Below are positions 23,049-31,213 of a DNA stretch of 32,172 nucleotides, in pieces. The number at the start of each line of letters is the position of its first letter. Within the stretch, counting starts at the first letter, position 1. Location: contig NZ_MQTZ01000062.1 in the NCBI RefSeq assembly GCF_001939115.1, positions 1 through 32,172 of the forward strand. The letters are read 5' to 3'. The translations under genes and the position numbers were made by a program. Source of the stretch: Leptolyngbya sp. 'hensonii' (GTDB lineage Bacteria; Cyanobacteriota; Cyanobacteriia; GCF-001939115). A model generated the notes under the pieces. That model had not been told where the DNA came from, searched no databases, and saw only the letters and a program-made list of their open reading frames with translations.

Positions 23049-23121
23049 GGGGAATTAGCTCAGTTGGTAGAGCGCTGCGATCGCACCGCAGAGGTCAGGG
23101 ATTCGAGTTCCCTATTCTCCA
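23049..23121 (+). tRNA. trnA-CGC: tRNA-Ala (anticodon CGC)
   Basis: A full cloverleaf can be drawn: acceptor GGGGAAT/ATTCTCC with the G3-U70 pair that is the alanine identity element; D arm GCTC/GAGC; anticodon stem CTGCG/CGCAG with loop ATCGCAC (anticodon CGC at 23082-23084, reading GCG); variable loop AGGTC; T arm AGGGA/TCCCT with loop TTCGAGT; discriminator A73. CCA is not encoded. A TAAAAT sequence (23033-23038) is suitably placed as a -10 box. A HIP1 octamer GCGATCGC (23077-23084) lies in the anticodon arm. An integrase gene follows 145 bp downstream in the same direction, so the 3' end is a likely integration site. Confidence 0.96.
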
Positions 23122-23266: not shown

Positions 23267-24370
23267 GTGGATATTACCGGGAAAATCGCTCAGGCTAACG
23301 GTCGGCTCAAGGCTGGCAACCTGGGGGTGCAAATTCAGCAAATTGGCGATCGCCTCTACCTGCGGGCAACCCTACCCCCAAAACCTGGTAACTCTAACCC
23401 TCGCCCTCACCAGCAGCGGATCAGCCTGGGGGTGAGGGCAAACCCGGCTGGTCTGAAGCAGGCCGAAGCTGAAGCCAGGAAAGTCGGTGCCTTGCTGGCC
23501 TGTCGTGAATTTGACTGGGCACCCTATTTGAATCTGGTTGAGGACTCGCCTCAGAACTGTGGAGAGTTGATTGAGGGGCTACGCCAGAATTACAGGGCCA
23601 GTGAAACAACCTGGCAGGGAGACTATCTTAAGATTTTCAAGCTCTTACCCCAGGAAAAACCTCTAACCCAGGAGCTGGTAGAACGGACTATCCAAAGCTT
23701 GACTCCCGATAACCCCAACAGCAGGACACGGGAGAGAGCCGCCATTGCCCTGGGGCGACTGTGCAGGTTTGCGGGGCTGGAGTATGACCCGGCTGCCCTG
23801 GCGGGCAAATATTCCCCGTCGCTGGTGGAGCCGCGTGATTTGCCCACTGATGAGGACATTGTTAAATCCTGGAAAAGCCTGGAAAATCTGAGTTGGGCAT
23901 GGTTTTATGGCATGGTTGCCACCTATGGGCTACGGCCCCATGAATGCTTCCACATCAAAGAGTATGAATGGCCCATCATCAGGATTGACAAGCCAACCAA
24001 GACAGGGGAAAGAGCCATCTGGCCGTTTTACCCTGAATGGGTAGAACAATTCCACCTGCAGGAAGTGCTGATACCACCCATCAAATTGGACAGAAGCAAT
24101 GAGGCGATCGGTAGGGCCTGCACTCATTACTTCTGGAAGAAACTTCCCTTTAACCTCTATTCACTTCGCCATCGATGGGCAGTGAGGACCCTGGAATTTG
24201 GCTTGGACATTTCACTCTCAGCCCAACAAATGGGTCATAGCGTAGCCACTCATAGCCGGATCTATCATCGGTGGATTGGGAAAGATGTCCATCAGAGGGC
24301 TTTTGAAGCATTGATCGCTAACCCCAACAGGCCAATTCCCCCAACGGCTCATCTTCTGTCGGGGGATTGA
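23267..24370 (+). CDS. int: Tyrosine recombinase/integrase
   Basis: A 367-residue site-specific recombinase. Residues about 15-80 look like an arm-DNA-binding domain, 95-175 the core-binding helices, and 190-345 the catalytic domain. Catalytic residues are Arg223 (YGLRPHE), Lys245 (PTKTGERA), Arg301 (YSLRHRW), His324 (QQMGHS) and nucleophile Tyr333 (SRIYHRW). The His that usually stands three residues before the second Arg is Tyr298. The GTG start at 23267 is preceded by AGGCAA. It should integrate the element at tRNA-Ala. Its last 22 bp overlap, tail to tail, the convergent Xis-like gene. Confidence 0.92.
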   Translation: MDITGKIAQANGRLKAGNLGVQIQQIGDRLYLRATLPPKPGNSNPRPHQQRISLGVRANPAGLKQAEAEARKVGALLACREFDWAPYLNLVEDSPQNCGELIEGLRQNYRASETTWQGDYLKIFKLLPQEKPLTQELVERTIQSLTPDNPNSRTRERAAIALGRLCRFAGLEYDPAALAGKYSPSLVEPRDLPTDEDIVKSWKSLENLSWAWFYGMVATYGLRPHECFHIKEYEWPIIRIDKPTKTGERAIWPFYPEWVEQFHLQEVLIPPIKLDRSNEAIGRACTHYFWKKLPFNLYSLRHRWAVRTLEFGLDISLSAQQMGHSVATHSRIYHRWIGKDVHQRAFEALIANPNRPIPPTAHLLSGD

Positions 24371-24573
24371 GAGAGCCACTCTTCTATCCGCTTGATGTGC
24401 CATCGATAAGTGGCACGGATCGCTGTGGGCCTACGGATATCTCGCCAGTGATAGCCCTGTTTCCAGTGTTCCAACATTGAATAGAGCCAATCTGACGACA
24501 CAGCCAGGGTTTCTGCCGCTGCTGGAGTCGTGACCCAATCAGGAGAAGGGTTCCTAACTTTACGCCTGGGCAT
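24349..24573 (-). CDS. Excisionase-like HTH protein
   Basis: A 74-residue basic protein with a winged-helix/MerR-type start (WVTTPAAAETLAVSSDWLYSML) and a C-terminal IRATYRWHIKRIEEWLSQ, the layout of small excisionase or HTH_17 proteins that bend DNA at att sites. I chose the second ATG (24573): GGAGG sits 8 nt in front of it but abuts the first ATG (24579). It overlaps the end of the HNH gene by 14 bp and the end of int (opposite strand) by 22 bp. The excisionase role is inferred from size, fold pattern and position next to int. Confidence 0.7.
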   Translation of the reverse strand: MPRRKVRNPSPDWVTTPAAAETLAVSSDWLYSMLEHWKQGYHWRDIRRPTAIRATYRWHIKRIEEWLSQSPDRR

Positions 24574-24970
24574 GATCATCCCCTCCGATCGCTAGAAATA
24601 ACTGTCCTTCTCTCTCTTGCTTCAGCCGTCGTTTGGTTGCCATTGCGGCCAGGTCATAGCGGCAATGGCATGGAGCACACAATGCCCTGAGATTTTCGGG
24701 CCTGCAATCTTGGGGAATGTGGTTCAGGTGGGCAACGGTGAGAACAAATCGGCCAAACTTGGGAACCTGATGTAGCCCAAATTCCTCATTTTCCTCTGTC
24801 TCAAATAGGTCAGGAGACTTATCCCAAACCCGATCAATCAGCTCTCCATCTGACTCACCTGGTCTGCGACAATCCCGACCGCACTGCTGGCACTTCCAGC
24901 CAGCCGCTTCCTTGATCGCTAGGGCGATCGCTTCCCAGTTTTCCGGGTAGAGCCGTCTATCCATGGGCAT
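24560..24970 (-). CDS. HNH endonuclease
   Basis: A 136-residue protein with a zinc-binding HNH fold: first Cys pair WKCQQCGRDC (about 26-35), the HNH core TVAHLNHIPQDCRPENLRALC (about 78-98, with the catalytic His pair and Asn), and the second Cys pair CAPCHCRYD. The likely start is the ATG at 24970, with GGAGG 8 nt upstream; GTG at 24979 and ATG at 24964 are alternatives. It overlaps the ATPase stop and the Xis-like start by 14 bp each, so the three genes are translationally coupled. A role in DNA packaging, defence or replication of the element cannot be told from the sequence. Confidence 0.85.
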   Translation of the reverse strand: MPMDRRLYPENWEAIALAIKEAAGWKCQQCGRDCRRPGESDGELIDRVWDKSPDLFETEENEEFGLHQVPKFGRFVLTVAHLNHIPQDCRPENLRALCAPCHCRYDLAAMATKRRLKQEREGQLFLAIGGDDHAQA

Positions 24971-26888
24971 TGTCACCACCTCCCTGCTTCAAAACCTGTA
25001 CGTCATTTATGGCAAACACGCTATTTCTACCGGTCTGCTGATTTCGGACCTTCACCCGTTTCCGGTCTCGACTGAGGGAGATGATCAGGCTGTCTCCGGT
25101 CAATTCATGGAAGAGAGCATCTGGAAGCTGATTCAAAGGAATTTGTGGAAGCTCTTTGAGGGATGGCCGCAACTCCTTCCAGGGCAACTTGTCAGAGCCG
25201 CTCCTAATCCAGCTCCCACCCCCACAAATGGTCACCAGGTCACCGACACCAGGGGGGTGATTTTGGGATGGATCACCTTTTTTTTGACTCTGGGTAAGGG
25301 TTTGACCCAAAAGGTGATCCGCCTCCTGTGTCGGATCACCTTCTTTTTTGGGGGGTGGATCACCTTTTTTTTGACTCTGGGTAAGGGTTTGACCCAAAAG
25401 GTGATCCGTGATCTCTCTTATTCCAGAAAGTTTTTTTTCATTAGCACTCTCACCGGGAGAGTGCCAATTATTATTTTGTTTAAAAAAGTGCGGATCACCT
25501 GGATCACCTTTTTTAAAAACCTCTAAAACTCTCTCTGAGTCTTCTTTTAAAGGGTGATCCAAAAGGTGATCCGATGTATAGAGTGGATCACCTTTTTTAG
25601 GGACGAAGTATAGATAAGCCCGTTGATTCTTTGCAGTTTTAGTGACCTTTCGTTGAATCAAACCTTTGCTCCATAACTCACTCAGGAGTTTTCTGGCTTT
25701 CCCCCTGGAGATATTGAGGAACTCTGACACCTCGATCGCGGCATAGGCTGTCCCAATGCGATCGCCCTCCGATAGCCAGAGCTGAATTTTCTTCTCTTGG
25801 GTCAGATCCTGTTCCTGCTCTCCCCCTTCCTCACCCAAATAGGTAAAGCTGAGGTCTTCCTCATGGAACTTGAAGTTATAGCGACCTGGGGGGCGACCCA
25901 GACGCATCTTTTGCACCCTGAGAACTCTCTCCTCTGGAGAATTGCCAACTGCCATGGCCCACACCTCAGACACGCTGTTATGGATAGCCCTGGTCCCTCT
26001 GGCATTCCCGCTGGCGTTGGAGTGGTGAATGATGATGACGGTGGTTCCCGTCCGGTTGGCCAGGTTGGTGAGCTGTAGGACGGGCCTTGCATACTCGGTA
26101 TCGTTCTCCGAGAAGATGGAATTACGGTTGATGGCGGTCAGGCTATCGATCACCAGCAGCTCTGGCTGATCTCGTTTGATTGTGGCCTCCAATGGAGCCA
26201 TGGCTTCAATCTGCCAGTCTTCCAAGATTCCCAGGTTTGGGTGTTCACCGATGCCACGCACATCCAGCCGCTCTCCGAGGATGACGCCCGGTTCGTCTAC
26301 CTGCACCATCAACACCCCCCCCTGCTGTACCTGGTAGCCCTGCCAGGGCTGACCAGTGAGGACGCTCTCTACAATTTGGTAGGTAAATAGGCTTTTCCCC
26401 ACCCCGCCGTCGGCGTGCAGGAGCAGTACAGACCCCTTGGGAATCCAGCCATGGATCAGCCAGTTTACACCAGCGCTATACTTTTCCTTCAGCTCCTTCG
26501 GCGTCAGCGGCATGACGGGGGCCTGCTTGGCTAGGGCCTTGTTGTAGGCATCCATCAGTTGCCTGGGGGTGCGATGAAATTTTCGGGCCAGGGCCTGAAT
26601 CTTCCATTCCCTCAACCCGGGGTCAGAGATGGCTTCCAGGGCTTCCACCTGTCGGACCACACTGTTGAACTCTACCTGGTCAAGGTCCAGCCCCAGCGTA
26701 GTGGCAGCGACCCGCTCTGCCTCTTGCTTCACCAGGTCAAAGCCAACCCCATAGGTTTTGGCGATCTGGCCCAGACGGAAGGAGGAAAAGAGGGGATTTT
26801 TGAGTACCTCGATCAGCTCTGCTTCCAGGCGGTTGTCTGCTTCCCGCTGCAGCCAGTCGAGTTTTTCATCTGCAATTTTGTCATTCAT
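24957..26888 (-). CDS. RepA-like hexameric ATPase/helicase with repeat-rich linker
   Basis: A 643-residue protein. Residues 1-130 are helical and lack a recognised family. Residues 140-350 are a RecA-type P-loop domain of the RepA/DnaB-like group: Walker A ADGGVGKS (159-166), Walker B LLVIDS (244-249), the His-containing strand VIIIHHS (284-290) and an NARGTRAI motif. Residues about 365-415 form a winged helix (EVSEFLNISRGKARKLLSELWSKGLIQRK). Residues 430-545 are a low-complexity linker of KKGDP and DHLLGQTLTQSQ repeats. A C-terminal SH3-like module follows (GVGDLVTICGGGS ... VKVRNQQTGRNSVFAINDV). The start at 26888 has GGAAA in front; an in-frame ATG at 26939 has none and would read through a terminator hairpin. 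Replication initiation or helicase loading for the element is the likely role. Confidence 0.85.
   Translation of the reverse strand: MNDKIADEKLDWLQREADNRLEAELIEVLKNPLFSSFRLGQIAKTYGVGFDLVKQEAERVAATTLGLDLDQVEFNSVVRQVEALEAISDPGLREWKIQALARKFHRTPRQLMDAYNKALAKQAPVMPLTPKELKEKYSAGVNWLIHGWIPKGSVLLLHADGGVGKSLFTYQIVESVLTGQPWQGYQVQQGGVLMVQVDEPGVILGERLDVRGIGEHPNLGILEDWQIEAMAPLEATIKRDQPELLVIDSLTAINRNSIFSENDTEYARPVLQLTNLANRTGTTVIIIHHSNASGNARGTRAIHNSVSEVWAMAVGNSPEERVLRVQKMRLGRPPGRYNFKFHEEDLSFTYLGEEGGEQEQDLTQEKKIQLWLSEGDRIGTAYAAIEVSEFLNISRGKARKLLSELWSKGLIQRKVTKTAKNQRAYLYFVPKKGDPLYTSDHLLDHPLKEDSERVLEVFKKGDPGDPHFFKQNNNWHSPGESANEKKLSGIREITDHLLGQTLTQSQKKGDPPPKKEGDPTQEADHLLGQTLTQSQKKGDPSQNHPPGVGDLVTICGGGSWIRSGSDKLPWKELRPSLKELPQIPLNQLPDALFHELTGDSLIISLSRDRKRVKVRNQQTGRNSVFAINDVQVLKQGGGDNAHG
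25269..25592. repeat. Cluster of ten GGATCACC/GGTGATCC palindromic half-sites, with a 53-bp direct repeat
   Basis: GGATCACC occurs at 25270, 25333, 25357, 25492, 25501 and 25585, and its complement GGTGATCC at 25313, 25400, 25553 and 25565. Most are followed by T runs or preceded by A runs. The segment 25269-25321 is repeated exactly at 25356-25408; each copy is a hairpin with the half-sites as its arms. All lie in the linker of the ATPase gene and keep its frame: read on the minus strand, one orientation gives KGDP and the other DHL. Confidence 0.92.
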
Positions 26889-26900
26889 AGCATTTCCATG

Positions 26901-26934
26901 AAAAAAAAAAGAGCCGTGCGATCGTGCAGGGCTC
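26901..26934 (-). terminator. Intrinsic terminator/attenuator directly before the ATPase gene
   Basis: On the minus strand a GAGCC/GGCTC stem (26911-26934), extended by TGC/GCA past one mismatch, is followed at once by ten T's (26901-26910). The ATPase ATG lies only 12 nt further on. No room remains for a promoter between the terminator and the gene, so the ATPase message must read through it, which suggests attenuation or antitermination. Confidence 0.75.
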
Positions 26935-26959
26935 CACATCTTGGAAGAAAACAGTCATA

Positions 26960-28632: not shown

Positions 28633-28715
28633 CTGCACAATAGAACCAGGGGAGTGACCCTATCACCCCCCCGGTCATGCCCACAGTTACCTTCACTAAC
28701 CGGAGCACCCTCATT

Positions 28716-28928
28716 ATGACCAAGATGAAAGCCTTTACCGTCGCGATCCATCGGGAAGAGGATCAGTATGTGGCTGAATGTCTCGAAGTCGGTACAGTAG
28801 ACCAGGGCGAAACTATAGAACAGGCCCTGGAGAATCTGAAAGAAGCTACCCGGCTCTACTTGGAAGCAACGAGCCAGACAGACTTTACCCCTCGGTTTGT
28901 GACCAGCATTGAGGTGGAATGTGCCTAA
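28716..28928 (+). CDS. hicB: HicB-family antitoxin
   Basis: A 70-residue protein with the partial RNase H-like fold of HicB: FTVAIHREEDQYVAECLEVGTVDQGETIEQAL is the family signature, followed by the ENLKEATRLYLEA helix. It should neutralise the HicA mRNA interferase encoded downstream. An earlier in-frame ATG (28677) lacks a ribosome-binding site, while the ATG at 28716 has GGAG 10 nt in front. It is a short form without a C-terminal HTH/RHH domain, so autoregulation may need another protein. It overlaps hicA by 8 bp (antitoxin first). Confidence 0.9.
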   Translation: MTKMKAFTVAIHREEDQYVAECLEVGTVDQGETIEQALENLKEATRLYLEATSQTDFTPRFVTSIEVECA

Positions 28929-29166
28929 GCTACCTCGGATTTCTGGTTCTGAAGCTGTGAAAGCACTGGGCCGGATGGGGTTCTATTTAGACCGTCAAAC
29001 TGGGAGCCACGCTGTGCTAAAGAAGCCTCTGGTCAATGAATCAGAGGAGCCATGTGGGGAAGTTGTTTGTGTCGTTCCCTTGCATCGGGAGCTAAAAACC
29101 GGAACTCTAGCCGGAGTGCTCAAACAGGCCCAAGTCAACCCCGAGGAATTTATCTCGAATCTCTAA
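28921..29166 (+). CDS. hicA: HicA-family toxin (mRNA interferase)
   Basis: An 81-residue dsRBD-like toxin that cleaves mRNA. The catalytic His30 lies in TGSHAVLKK; the block VVCVVPLHRELKTGTLAGVLKQAQV matches the conserved P(L/M)H ... GTL ... IL(K/R)QA end of HicA. GTG at 28921 is the likely start (GAGG 6 nt upstream, 8-bp overlap with hicB). The insertion PLVNESEEPCGE between the His strand and the next is longer than in short HicA proteins. With hicB it forms a stabilisation module for the element. Confidence 0.9.
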   Translation: MPKLPRISGSEAVKALGRMGFYLDRQTGSHAVLKKPLVNESEEPCGEVVCVVPLHRELKTGTLAGVLKQAQVNPEEFISNL

Positions 29167-29231: not shown

Positions 29232-29729
29232 ATGAACGATTTACTTTCGACGGCAGAAGTTGCCGATCGCCTGGGAGTGAAACCTGGAACAGTCCGCTCC
29301 TGGTTCCATCGCTATCCCGAACTCTTCCAGGAGGGAACCCATTACGTCAACGACAAAGGCAACAAGCTCTGGACCGGTGCAGGATTCAACCTGTTTCAGG
29401 TCCGTGCAACGCAAGATGTAACGCAGGGTGCAACGGGTAGCGTTGCGCCTTCCGTTGCAGACCCGATCGATCAGCAGCTCCAGCCGGTGGCAGATGCGAT
29501 CGCCCTGGCCGCGATCGAACAGCGGTTGCCGGGACTGGTGCAGGGCAGTATCCATCGCATCCTGAACAATCCCACGGACCTGGACAGTCAGAAGCTGGCA
29601 TCGATGCTGGATCGACTGGGCCAGAGCCTGGGCCTGTTGCAGATGAGTAAGGCCCTGGCCAATGGCCTGAGCATTGCAGTTGCAGCAAGTGTGAAACAAC
29701 TGGAGGGCATCCCCGATGGAAGGCAATGA
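29232..29729 (+). CDS. HTH DNA-binding protein with helical C-terminus
   Basis: A 165-residue protein starting at an ATG with GAGGAAA upstream. Residues 1-50 form a MerR/excisionase-type HTH (LLSTAEVADRLGVKPGTVRSW followed by a wing-like GTHYVNDKGNKLWTGAGF). Residues 70-160 are helical, Leu/Ala/Gln-rich and lack charged surfaces (SMLDRLGQSLGLLQMSKALA), possibly for multimerisation. It is the first gene of a five-gene run whose DNA is dense in TGCAAC/GTTGCA. It could be the regulator or DNA-organising protein of this module. The next gene starts inside it (29716). Confidence 0.75.
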   Translation: MNDLLSTAEVADRLGVKPGTVRSWFHRYPELFQEGTHYVNDKGNKLWTGAGFNLFQVRATQDVTQGATGSVAPSVADPIDQQLQPVADAIALAAIEQRLPGLVQGSIHRILNNPTDLDSQKLASMLDRLGQSLGLLQMSKALANGLSIAVAASVKQLEGIPDGRQ

Positions 29730-29886
29730 TAAGGCCCTGCTGGTGGGAGTGCTGGGAGCCTTGCTGGTGGTCTGGCAGTGGACAGGAACCCAGGCATTGA
29801 AACGGGATAACGATCGGCTTCAAGCCCAACTGTTGCAAGTGCAGTTGCAGTTGCAGAGTTTTCGGGAAGGGGTGCTCTCAAAATGA
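29716..29886 (+). CDS. Small single-pass membrane protein with coiled coil
   Basis: A 56-residue protein, ATG at 29716 to TGA at 29886, overlapping the upstream stop by 14 bp. It has a hydrophobic segment ALLVGVLGALLVVWQW (7-22) and a Gln/Leu-rich heptad tail (NDRLQAQLLQVQLQLQSF), so it is anchored N-terminally with a coiled coil on one side. No family is recognised. The layout recalls small phage lysis or plasmid membrane proteins, but that is only analogy. It belongs to the same run as the next three genes. Confidence 0.7.
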   Translation: MEGNDKALLVGVLGALLVVWQWTGTQALKRDNDRLQAQLLQVQLQLQSFREGVLSK

Positions 29887-29967
29887 CACCCCTAACCGGA
29901 GCCAGAAGCCCACCAGTGACCAATGACCAATAACTAAATGACCAAAACCATATAAGGAGATTCATCC

Positions 29968-30408
29968 ATGGGATTCATGACCGCTCTATTTGGCAAGAAA
30001 ACCGCCGTTGCACCTGCAACCCACAGCCTGCCCGTTGCACCTGGGGGAGACCTGGACACTCTTCGGAGTGCGCCCCTGGTGCAACAACCCCGCTACTTCG
30101 ACAAGCCCCAGGCCGATGCCCTCCAGCAACTGGCCAGCGATCGCACCGCTGGAGCAAGGCAGACCGTCAGGGCCTACAACCACCTCACCCGGATTGAGGA
30201 GGCGGATACCCGTGTTCATCGCGCCCATCGTCGTTATCAGGGAGCCGTTGCAGACAACAAACTCACCCGCGATCGCGCCGATGCCCGGTTGCAACGCAAG
30301 GGGCAACAGTTGCGACCGGAGTATGAACGACTGCATCAGGGAGTGCAACGGGCAACTCAAAACGCTGACACCCGCATTGCTGAATTGCGTCGTCTGATGG
30401 GGGCCTGA
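29968..30408 (+). CDS. Hypothetical Arg-rich helical protein
   Basis: A 146-residue protein with a strong ribosome-binding site (AAGGAGA, 7 nt before the ATG). The N-terminal 40 residues are Ala/Pro-rich and unfolded (MGFMTALFGKKTAVAPATHS); residues 48-146 are a long Arg/Gln/Ala helix (AGARQTVRAYNHLTRIEEADTR continued by a similar charged stretch). No family is recognised. It could be a coiled-coil adaptor to the membrane proteins around it. The stop overlaps the next start by 1 bp (TGATG). Confidence 0.7.
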   Translation: MGFMTALFGKKTAVAPATHSLPVAPGGDLDTLRSAPLVQQPRYFDKPQADALQQLASDRTAGARQTVRAYNHLTRIEEADTRVHRAHRRYQGAVADNKLTRDRADARLQRKGQQLRPEYERLHQGVQRATQNADTRIAELRRLMGA

Positions 30409-30689
30409 TGACCAGAGCGATACACCTGACCGCCTATTTCCTGGTGGGGTGTATCGCCTCCACTATCCTGGCCTGGATGGGAGGCTTACACCCCGCTCTG
30501 ACCCGGTTTGCCGTTGCCATTTACCTCCTGGTGGGGATGGGCTGGCTGGCATTCCTGCTCTTTGATGATGCCCTACTCAAACCCTTCCGGCTCACCCTGC
30601 TGGAATACCGGGCGGTGTTGATTGCAACGATGGTGGCAACGCTGATTGGAATTGCTACGGGGGTGATGACATGTTTGCAGAGTATCTGA
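30408..30689 (+). CDS. Three-helix membrane protein, function unknown
   Basis: A 93-residue protein with three predicted transmembrane segments (about 5-25, 33-52 and 66-88) and the short polar loop FDDALLKPFRLTLLEYR between the second and third. No family is recognised. TGATG coupling to the preceding gene and a 19-bp overlap with the following gene show that the three are translated together. Confidence 0.75.
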   Translation: MTRAIHLTAYFLVGCIASTILAWMGGLHPALTRFAVAIYLLVGMGWLAFLLFDDALLKPFRLTLLEYRAVLIATMVATLIGIATGVMTCLQSI

Positions 30690-31186
30690 AGCTGGGGGGC
30701 CTACTCTCCCTCACCCTTAGCTTCTGGCTCTTACCTGTCTGTTTCCCCCTGAAGCGATATGAGCAGGGGATATCACTGGCGATCGCCCTGGTGTCTGCCG
30801 TGGCCCTGGTCCATCATTCCCGTTGCACCCTGCAACAGGAAGACTACGATCGGCAGTTCCAGTTAATGGACCAGGAGTTACAGCGATCGGAGCTGGCGTT
30901 GCAGACCTACCAGGCGGAACAGGCTTTGCAAGAGCGATACTTGCAACCGTCAACGCTGGAAGTACTTCCGCTTCCACTTCCCGGAAGTACTTCCACTTCC
31001 GGAAGCACTTCCACTTCCACTTCCGGAAGCACTTCCACTGAAGACAGCACGTTGCTGGCTGAAATCAGGAAGTTGCAGTCTCAGGGTATGAGTCCAACTG
31101 CGATCGTCAAATGTATTTGGGGCACTTCCTCAGGCCGATCGTTTCAAAGGGCAATGGCCCATTACAAACGGCTGACCAGGGAATGA
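30671..31186 (+). CDS. Membrane-anchored coiled-coil protein with repeat linker and C-terminal IWG module
   Basis: A 171-residue protein: two hydrophobic segments (about 7-26 and 33-48), a Gln/Glu coiled coil (52-92), a Ser/Thr/Gly linker made of hexanucleotide repeats (about 104-125) and a 45-residue C-terminal module LLAEIRKLQSQGMSPTAIVK followed by IWGTSSGRSFQRAMAHYKRL (split here). The last part looks like a compact helical nucleic-acid or protein-binding tail; I cannot name its family. GGGGGTG precedes the ATG. It is the last gene before the convergent terminator at 31214. Confidence 0.75.
   Translation: MFAEYLKLGGLLSLTLSFWLLPVCFPLKRYEQGISLAIALVSAVALVHHSRCTLQQEDYDRQFQLMDQELQRSELALQTYQAEQALQERYLQPSTLEVLPLPLPGSTSTSGSTSTSTSGSTSTEDSTLLAEIRKLQSQGMSPTAIVKCIWGTSSGRSFQRAMAHYKRLTRE
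30957..31039 (+). repeat. Degenerate CTTCCA hexanucleotide repeat tract
   Basis: Repeated CTTCCA and GGAAGCACTTCCACTTCC units, with GGAAGTACTTCC palindromes, encode a (Gly-)Ser-Thr-Ser-Thr linker in the 171-residue membrane protein. The unit length is a multiple of three, so changes in copy number keep the frame and alter only linker length. Confidence 0.85.
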
Positions 31187-31213
31187 CTGCAACGCTGCAA
31201 TGCCTTGCCACAC

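Follow-up and report, generated by a model that had tools for sequence, protein, structure and literature searches.

A dense local TGCAAC/GTTGCA array in a five-gene module of a cyanobacterial mobile element and its association with a MerR-like protein

Described systems and the Leptolyngbya module

SpdA2 of the Streptomyces plasmid pIJ101 is a DNA-binding protein with a site inside its own coding sequence, and its loss lowers segregational stability; the site, sps, is a conserved 12-bp palindrome that occurs in one to three copies and has one sequence across plasmids, and the plasmids that bear SpdA2/sps have a mycelial host and also carry spread genes whose families are unknown (PMC4170104). 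The same article refers to the TraB/clt system of Streptomyces plasmids, in which repeated 8-bp TRS sequences in clt load the FtsK-like TraB (via PMC4170104). Two further proteins carry MerR-like domains: TubY of type III partition systems combines a MerR-like HTH with a helical C-terminus, is membrane-associated and is needed for plasmid maintenance (PMC7762940), and BldC forms head-to-tail multimers on direct repeats whose number varies (PMC5859096). These proteins show membrane-linked and multimeric uses of MerR-like domains (PMC7762940, PMC5859096).

We analysed a window of 32,172 nucleotides of Leptolyngbya sp. 'hensonii' (contig NZ_MQTZ01000062.1, positions 1 to 32,172), in which the hexamer TGCAAC, or its reverse complement GTTGCA, is strongly concentrated in a module of five genes, g1 to g5:

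29232..29729, + strand: g1, MerR-like winged-helix DNA-binding protein of 165 aa (Pfam HTH_23, AlphaFold model, PDB structure matches)
29403..29477, + strand, boundaries approximate: linker of g1, coding three sites read as RAT, GAT and SVA
29716..29886, + strand: g2, small protein with a predicted membrane stretch and a Q/L-rich coiled coil (by eye)
29968..30408, + strand: g3, helical/coiled-coil protein (by eye), with 8 sites
30408..30689, + strand: g4, small membrane protein (by eye)
30671..31186, + strand: g5, with two hydrophobic helices, a long coiled coil, a disordered linker and a three-helix C-terminal domain (AlphaFold)
29405..31193, no strand assigned: array of 23 TGCAAC/GTTGCA sites (counted in the window)

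As far as the available parts of these sources go, SpdA2/sps appears to be the closest functional precedent that we found, and an allele-specific hexamer array over five genes is described there neither for SpdA2/sps nor for TubY or BldC. As in SpdA/sps, going by its description, candidate sites lie inside the coding sequence of g1 itself; unlike sps as described, they are many non-palindromic hexamers spread over five genes, and the word differs by g1 allele. The module resembles TraB/clt, as summarized in the same source, in its repeated plasmid sites, membrane proteins and multicellular host, but TraB itself is an FtsK-like motor and the module of the window has no motor. TubY, by the account consulted, works with TubZ and TubR, whereas none of ten window proteins run against Pfam matched such families, and BldC, unlike g1, is presented as a transcription regulator acting on 9-bp direct repeats at promoters (PMC5859096). 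In contrast to ParABS, ParMRC and TubZRC, g1 to g5 encode no motor NTPase together with the DNA-binding protein, and family searches with the five proteins returned no NTPase match.

The AlphaFold model of g1 has a pLDDT of about 96 over most of the DNA-binding domain, is floppy at residues 68-75 (pLDDT < 50) and is of low confidence in the helical C-terminal remainder. Residues 1-67 match RacA, pSK1 Par, CadR and others with Z of about 7 to 9; the best PDB match is RacA-DNA (Z 8.8, 2.2 A over 61), alongside the pSK1 Par DNA-binding domain (Z 7.8, 1.8 A over 53) and the ordinary MerR regulators CadR (Z 7.8) and CvkR (Z 7.4), differences under about 1 being ties. Foldseek E-values were weak, 0.025 at best. 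As modelled, g1 has the MerR-type winged helix-turn-helix fold; an earlier, sequence-only reading had described an HTH protein with a long helical C-terminus, of which the HTH stands (HTH_23, winged helix) and the tail is modelled less certainly. The predicted domain is thus like those of RacA from Bacillus and pSK1 Par from Staphylococcus, which act in segregation, as their PDB titles also indicate. The C-terminal part of g1 is modelled with low confidence, and we know of no RacA or pSK1 Par sites arrayed inside a multi-gene coding region.

Searches of Pfam, PHROGs and NCBIfam gave nothing above the cut-off for g2 to g5 or for their relatives. The g5 model (mean pLDDT 82.6, family alignment of 21) found non-specific matches only in a structure search. 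The g5 linker contains GGAAGTACTTCC / TTCCACTTCCGG repeats (window 30960-31050), mostly missing from a second, partial g5 copy; a further repeated word is ACTTCC (12 copies).

Local excess of the hexamer

The 23 sites lie, with their orientations, at 29405+, 29429+, 29454-, 29636-, 29679-, 29832-, 29844-, 29850-, 30007-, 30015+, 30034-, 30080+, 30247-, 30288-, 30290+, 30344+, 30623+, 30822-, 30831+, 30898-, 30942+, 31072- and 31188+. They are split 10 to 13 by orientation and use five of the six phase/orientation combinations, and five lie in the g1 gene, three of these candidate sites in its linker. The genome holds 4785 copies in 5,940,030 bases (2370 and 2415 by orientation), so that 1.44 would be expected per 1789 bases, and the extended core TGCAACG occurs 12 times against 0.34 expected. 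In a sample of 100 stretches of the same genome (1,830,329 bases), the runner-up 1789-base windows contain 10, 10, 9 and 9 copies, and one of the two with 10 (33629) takes in part of the second g5 copy. The excess reported in the sequence-only reading (23 copies in 1.8 kb, about one expected), the two orientations and the different codon registers were all borne out; its count of only two copies in the preceding 5 kb proved to be three (26997, 27721, 27982), and of its claim that both coding and non-coding DNA are involved the coding part holds for 22 of the 23 sites, only 31188 falling just outside a gene. The spacing of the hexamers includes 12- and 24-base direct repeats, a pattern that tandem duplication and relatedness confound.

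At other places of the genome sample, different hexamers are more numerous than this, the strongest being concentrated in L005, L048 and L029, which we take to be repeat arrays. The dense arrays at L005 1-1800 and L048 5700-8400, with the strongest hexamer counts, are possibly CRISPR or protein-repeat genes.

Could the word belong to the genome rather than to the module? KOPS and uptake words are distributed genome-wide, with strand polarity in the case of KOPS. TGCAAC is 3.3-fold commoner genome-wide than a reversed control word, but its excess ends at the module edges, both orientations are present and relatives use other words; unlike a HIP1-type iterated palindrome, it is not frequent genome-wide (0.81 per kb, against 13 per kb here). 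HIP1 words themselves were left out of the module scans. These findings contradict a HIP1-like, uptake or KOPS-like polar word, and we give such readings, together with foreign compositional bias, next to no credence; the likeness to KOPS and uptake sequences drawn by the sequence-only reading accordingly fails. Foreign composition of the whole element was rejected as a cause, the rest of the element being without a TGCAAC excess. The word is not mentioned in PMC4390886.

A second reading derives the hexamers from protein sequence, as a by-product of the LQ, VA and AT dipeptides of coiled coils combined with codon preference. Shuffling synonymous codons within each gene, with each protein and its codon usage kept, gave 6.1 +/- 2.0 copies (maximum 12 in 300 shuffles) against the 22 observed. 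Gene by gene, the observed count was reached in 18/5000 shuffles for g1, 0/5000 for g3 and 2/5000 for g5, a clear excess, and there was no clear excess in g2 (936/5000) or g4 (1587/5000). Coding thus accounts for roughly 6 of the 22, and neither g2 nor g4 reaches significance; against this, the excess survives shuffling in the window, Nostocales, Crinalium and L117 modules, is gone in the 33 related modules without g1, and the words differ between close relatives, with the amino acids following the word. Two modules with g1 do not exceed their own shuffle means (L178 with merely 2 coding copies, L181 with 3). Contradicted by the shuffles and by the dependence on g1, the by-product reading is very improbable, and the original argument that codon preference explains the array poorly withstood the shuffle proposed as its refutation, which gave far fewer copies than observed.

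Related modules and the pairing of word with recognition helix

From plasmids, class-wide genome searches and a scan of genome contigs we collected 55 related modules, or 54 after removal of one duplicate. The class search of 388 genomes matched g1 in 6 and g3, the most widely conserved member of the module, in 17 (own genome included in both), and an ATPase from locus L149 in 9. No relative was found in a first genome-contig scan with g1 or a viral-contig scan with g3, and tblastn of the window g5 against plasmids gave no match. We left out L161, L168 and L174, whose lengths and match positions led us to equate them with the contigs L141, L142 and L144, and the partial g3 matches L134 and L140; L183, a second copy beside L182, was dropped from the comparison with and without g1, and L146, nearly the same as L145, was counted for g1 presence and in the helix/word tests and left out of the pooled-enrichment, density and shuffle analyses. 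Because the modules share ancestry, and the g5 genes of Crinalium hardly differ from one another, the counts are not independent and P-values overstate independence.

In a de novo comparison of 13 pooled Nostocales-clade modules with their own flanks, TGCAAC was the most enriched hexamer (112 vs 19.8), with TGCATC and TGCAGC next in rank. In four groups (window, Nostocales, Crinalium and pCRI9333.01), sites are crowded inside the module, including g1 and g5, and drop to about the background level beyond it. The 21 modules with g1 contain 195 copies against 38.1 expected from flanks (5.1-fold), whereas TGCAAC is not enriched in the 33 modules that have a g3 relative and no g1 (52 vs 70.7 expected from flanks; 55 vs a synonymous-shuffle mean of 55.3 +/- 6.6). 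Neither set shows an excess or deficit of the control word TGGAAC (30 vs 29.3 with g1), and an orphan g1 relative outside a module has no such cluster. When any hexamer was allowed, most modules did not stand out: only 12/55 exceeded the 95th percentile of their own genome and 5/55 that of their flanks; many of the modules without g1 may lack such an array, or have another elsewhere.

Six Crinalium epipsammum PCC 9333 plasmids carry g3 and g1 relatives together, several with a CyRepA1- or DUF3987-type gene near the module, and each g1 allele has its own word inside the g1 gene (0.7 or less expected in each of the five cases):

Window: helix KPGTVRSWFHR with TGCAAC (5 copies)
Crinalium.04: helix SVNCIRQWKSR with TGTAAC (7)
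Crinalium.02 and.05: helix SAGTLRTWKSR with TGAAAC (14 in two plasmids)
Crinalium.03 and.07: helix STNNLRVWKSR with TGTAAT (15 in two)
Crinalium.01: helix NPNTIKTWKNR with TGAATC (7)

The linker residues between the DNA-binding domain and the helical tail shift with the word (RAT and SVA, GVTASVTDDVTTGVTESVT, SVSDGETVSVSDGET, VTACNADITDDVI, AESTSESVPDS), as expected if DNA sites rather than protein are under selection there. The words are not strictly exclusive to their alleles: over whole Crinalium modules, TGCAAC exceeds the flank expectation in.02-.05 and.07, and not in.01. The excess is thus not a matter of codon or amino-acid use, is confined to the module, occurs in relatives only together with g1, and its word changes with the recognition helix. 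The presence or absence of g1 and the helix/hexamer pairing strongly support the initial proposal of a distributed binding site tied to the first gene; where g1 is present, homologous modules have TGCAAC or a word akin to it, so that the proposal also stands where homologous modules lacking the motif had been named as its refutation.

The g1 slot can be filled differently. The 7.6-kb Oscillatoria plasmid pOSC7112.05 has a g3 relative together with a DUF3987 Rep-type gene, and a different protein (by eye) in place of g1. In Tychonema and an uncultured cyanobacterium, a GTAGACA array (L167 11663-11980; L142 4288-4562, with g3 oriented +) precedes a small gene and also occupies its linker; the product of this gene (L167/L168) is ribbon-helix-helix-like by eye. 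This is another self-embedded array with a different protein type.

A possible role in maintenance or spread of the element

The module is part of a family of plasmids and integrative elements of cyanobacteria that carry genes for replication and an integrase. In the window, the element comprises:

24957..26939, - strand: Rep-like AAA_25 helicase of the same element (Pfam AAA_25, 1.4e-29)
23267..24370, + strand: tyrosine-recombinase-like integrase of the element (weak Pfam match, relatives beside module relatives)
23049..23121, + strand: tRNA-Ala adjoining the integrase, a possible integration site

Relatives of the window integrase and Rep are found near many of the related modules, integrase relatives adjoining module relatives in L148, L182, L185 and L189, for example. 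The tRNA-Ala repeat has no second att copy (attR) in contig C62 down to 16 bases, and only one of 14 related loci scanned has a tRNA nearby, about 5 kb or more from the module. The Rep region (window 23601-25600, the Rep gene and just downstream) has a GGATCACC/GGTGATCC cluster of its own with ten copies; translated within Rep, they apparently give GDP or DHL depending on orientation; Rep genes of other elements have words of their own, GATCACC (L180), CAGTAGT (L115) and GTCCAC (L111).

A HicB/HicA-like toxin-antitoxin pair lies directly upstream of the module (window 28677-29166). The g5 end (window 30854-31195) is duplicated beyond the window at C62 34841-35115 with 95-97% identity, and a 1007-aa TPR gene and a small gene lie between the two ends, as if cargo had been inserted at the module end.

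We consider it probable that the hexamers are dispersed binding sites of g1, kept by DNA-level selection inside coding sequence and co-evolving with g1. From the sequence comparisons, g1 would be the protein that binds them, very probably using the word as a half-site and occupying many copies cooperatively, so that g1 on half-sites across the operon could form a protein-coated patch. The coated stretch might be joined to the cell membrane via g2, g3, g4 and g5, two or three of which would be membrane proteins, and the membrane-joined stretch might then work as a distributed centromere or tether, either retaining the plasmid or excised element in the daughter cells or passing it from one cell of a filament to another, a step to which we assign even chances. 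We infer a membrane-linked complex for plasmid stability, segregation or spreading, and favour segregation or stability over movement.

A regulatory role would fit the MerR-like nature of g1, most MerR proteins being regulators, and sites covering the operon, which g1 might coat in order to repress or silence it. However, no site lies between 27982 and 29405, that is, in the likely promoter, and the array starts inside g1; dozens of sites exceed the need of a switch, and the allele-specific linker arrays would be left unexplained. We regard autoregulation as unlikely.

A stronger competitor, though still a minority view in our weighing, is a transfer or spreading module, in which the sites load a DNA-moving complex, as TRS loads TraB, and g2 to g5, as Spd-like membrane proteins, carry the element along filaments. 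The layout of the element, with integrase, Rep and small membrane proteins, agrees with this, as do the P-loop ATPase carried by the membrane protein in the g5 slot of L149 (no match in a sequence search of the PDB) and two further ATPases: one in G130, related to that of L149 and lying about 1.2 kb away from a g3-like match, and one on a Tolypothrix plasmid, which matches FtsK_SpoIIIE/HerA weakly and ends in a g5-type domain. Among the 30 g3 relatives from named genomes, 27 bear genus, family or order names, all of which we take to be filamentous (the other 3 are MAGs named only to cyanobacteria), and the six Crinalium plasmids are typed mobilizable. Yet the window module lacks an ATPase, the g5-slot ATPase was seen in L149 only, pOSC7112.05 is typed non-mobilizable, and the Crinalium plasmids are typed with relaxases of their own.

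The favoured segregation or stability role is in turn qualified by the Crinalium plasmids. Four of the six (.02,.03,.04 and.05) have annotated genes for ParM/StbA and ParA, so that the module is often accompanied by a different partition system, and g1 alleles are common to coexisting plasmids (.02 with.05;.03 with.07), an argument against a strict incompatibility determinant; both observations count against partition as the sole role.

More tentatively, the module may represent a new replicon-maintenance or spreading system of filamentous cyanobacteria, in which a distributed centromere lies in the coding sequence of its own operon, the g1 linker is shaped residue by residue by the bound sites, word and helix evolve together as matched pairs, and unrelated DNA-binding proteins, each bringing a word of its own, can take the place of g1 while g3 to g5 stay; pOSC7112.05 with TGTAGAC, the Microcoleus-type GTAGACA and Rep genes with GATCACC or CAGTAGT would be examples. 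We found no description of this system in the part of a limited literature search that we viewed. If correct, the five recognition-helix/hexamer pairs would be a natural set for decoding DNA recognition by MerR-like proteins, selection on DNA sites would dictate protein sequence in linkers, and repetitive linkers such as VTDDVT or DDATDDAT would carry a warning that they can be read as arrays of DNA sites. The families g3, g4 and g5 would then gain a testable role in the persistence or spread of plasmids in multicellular cyanobacteria.
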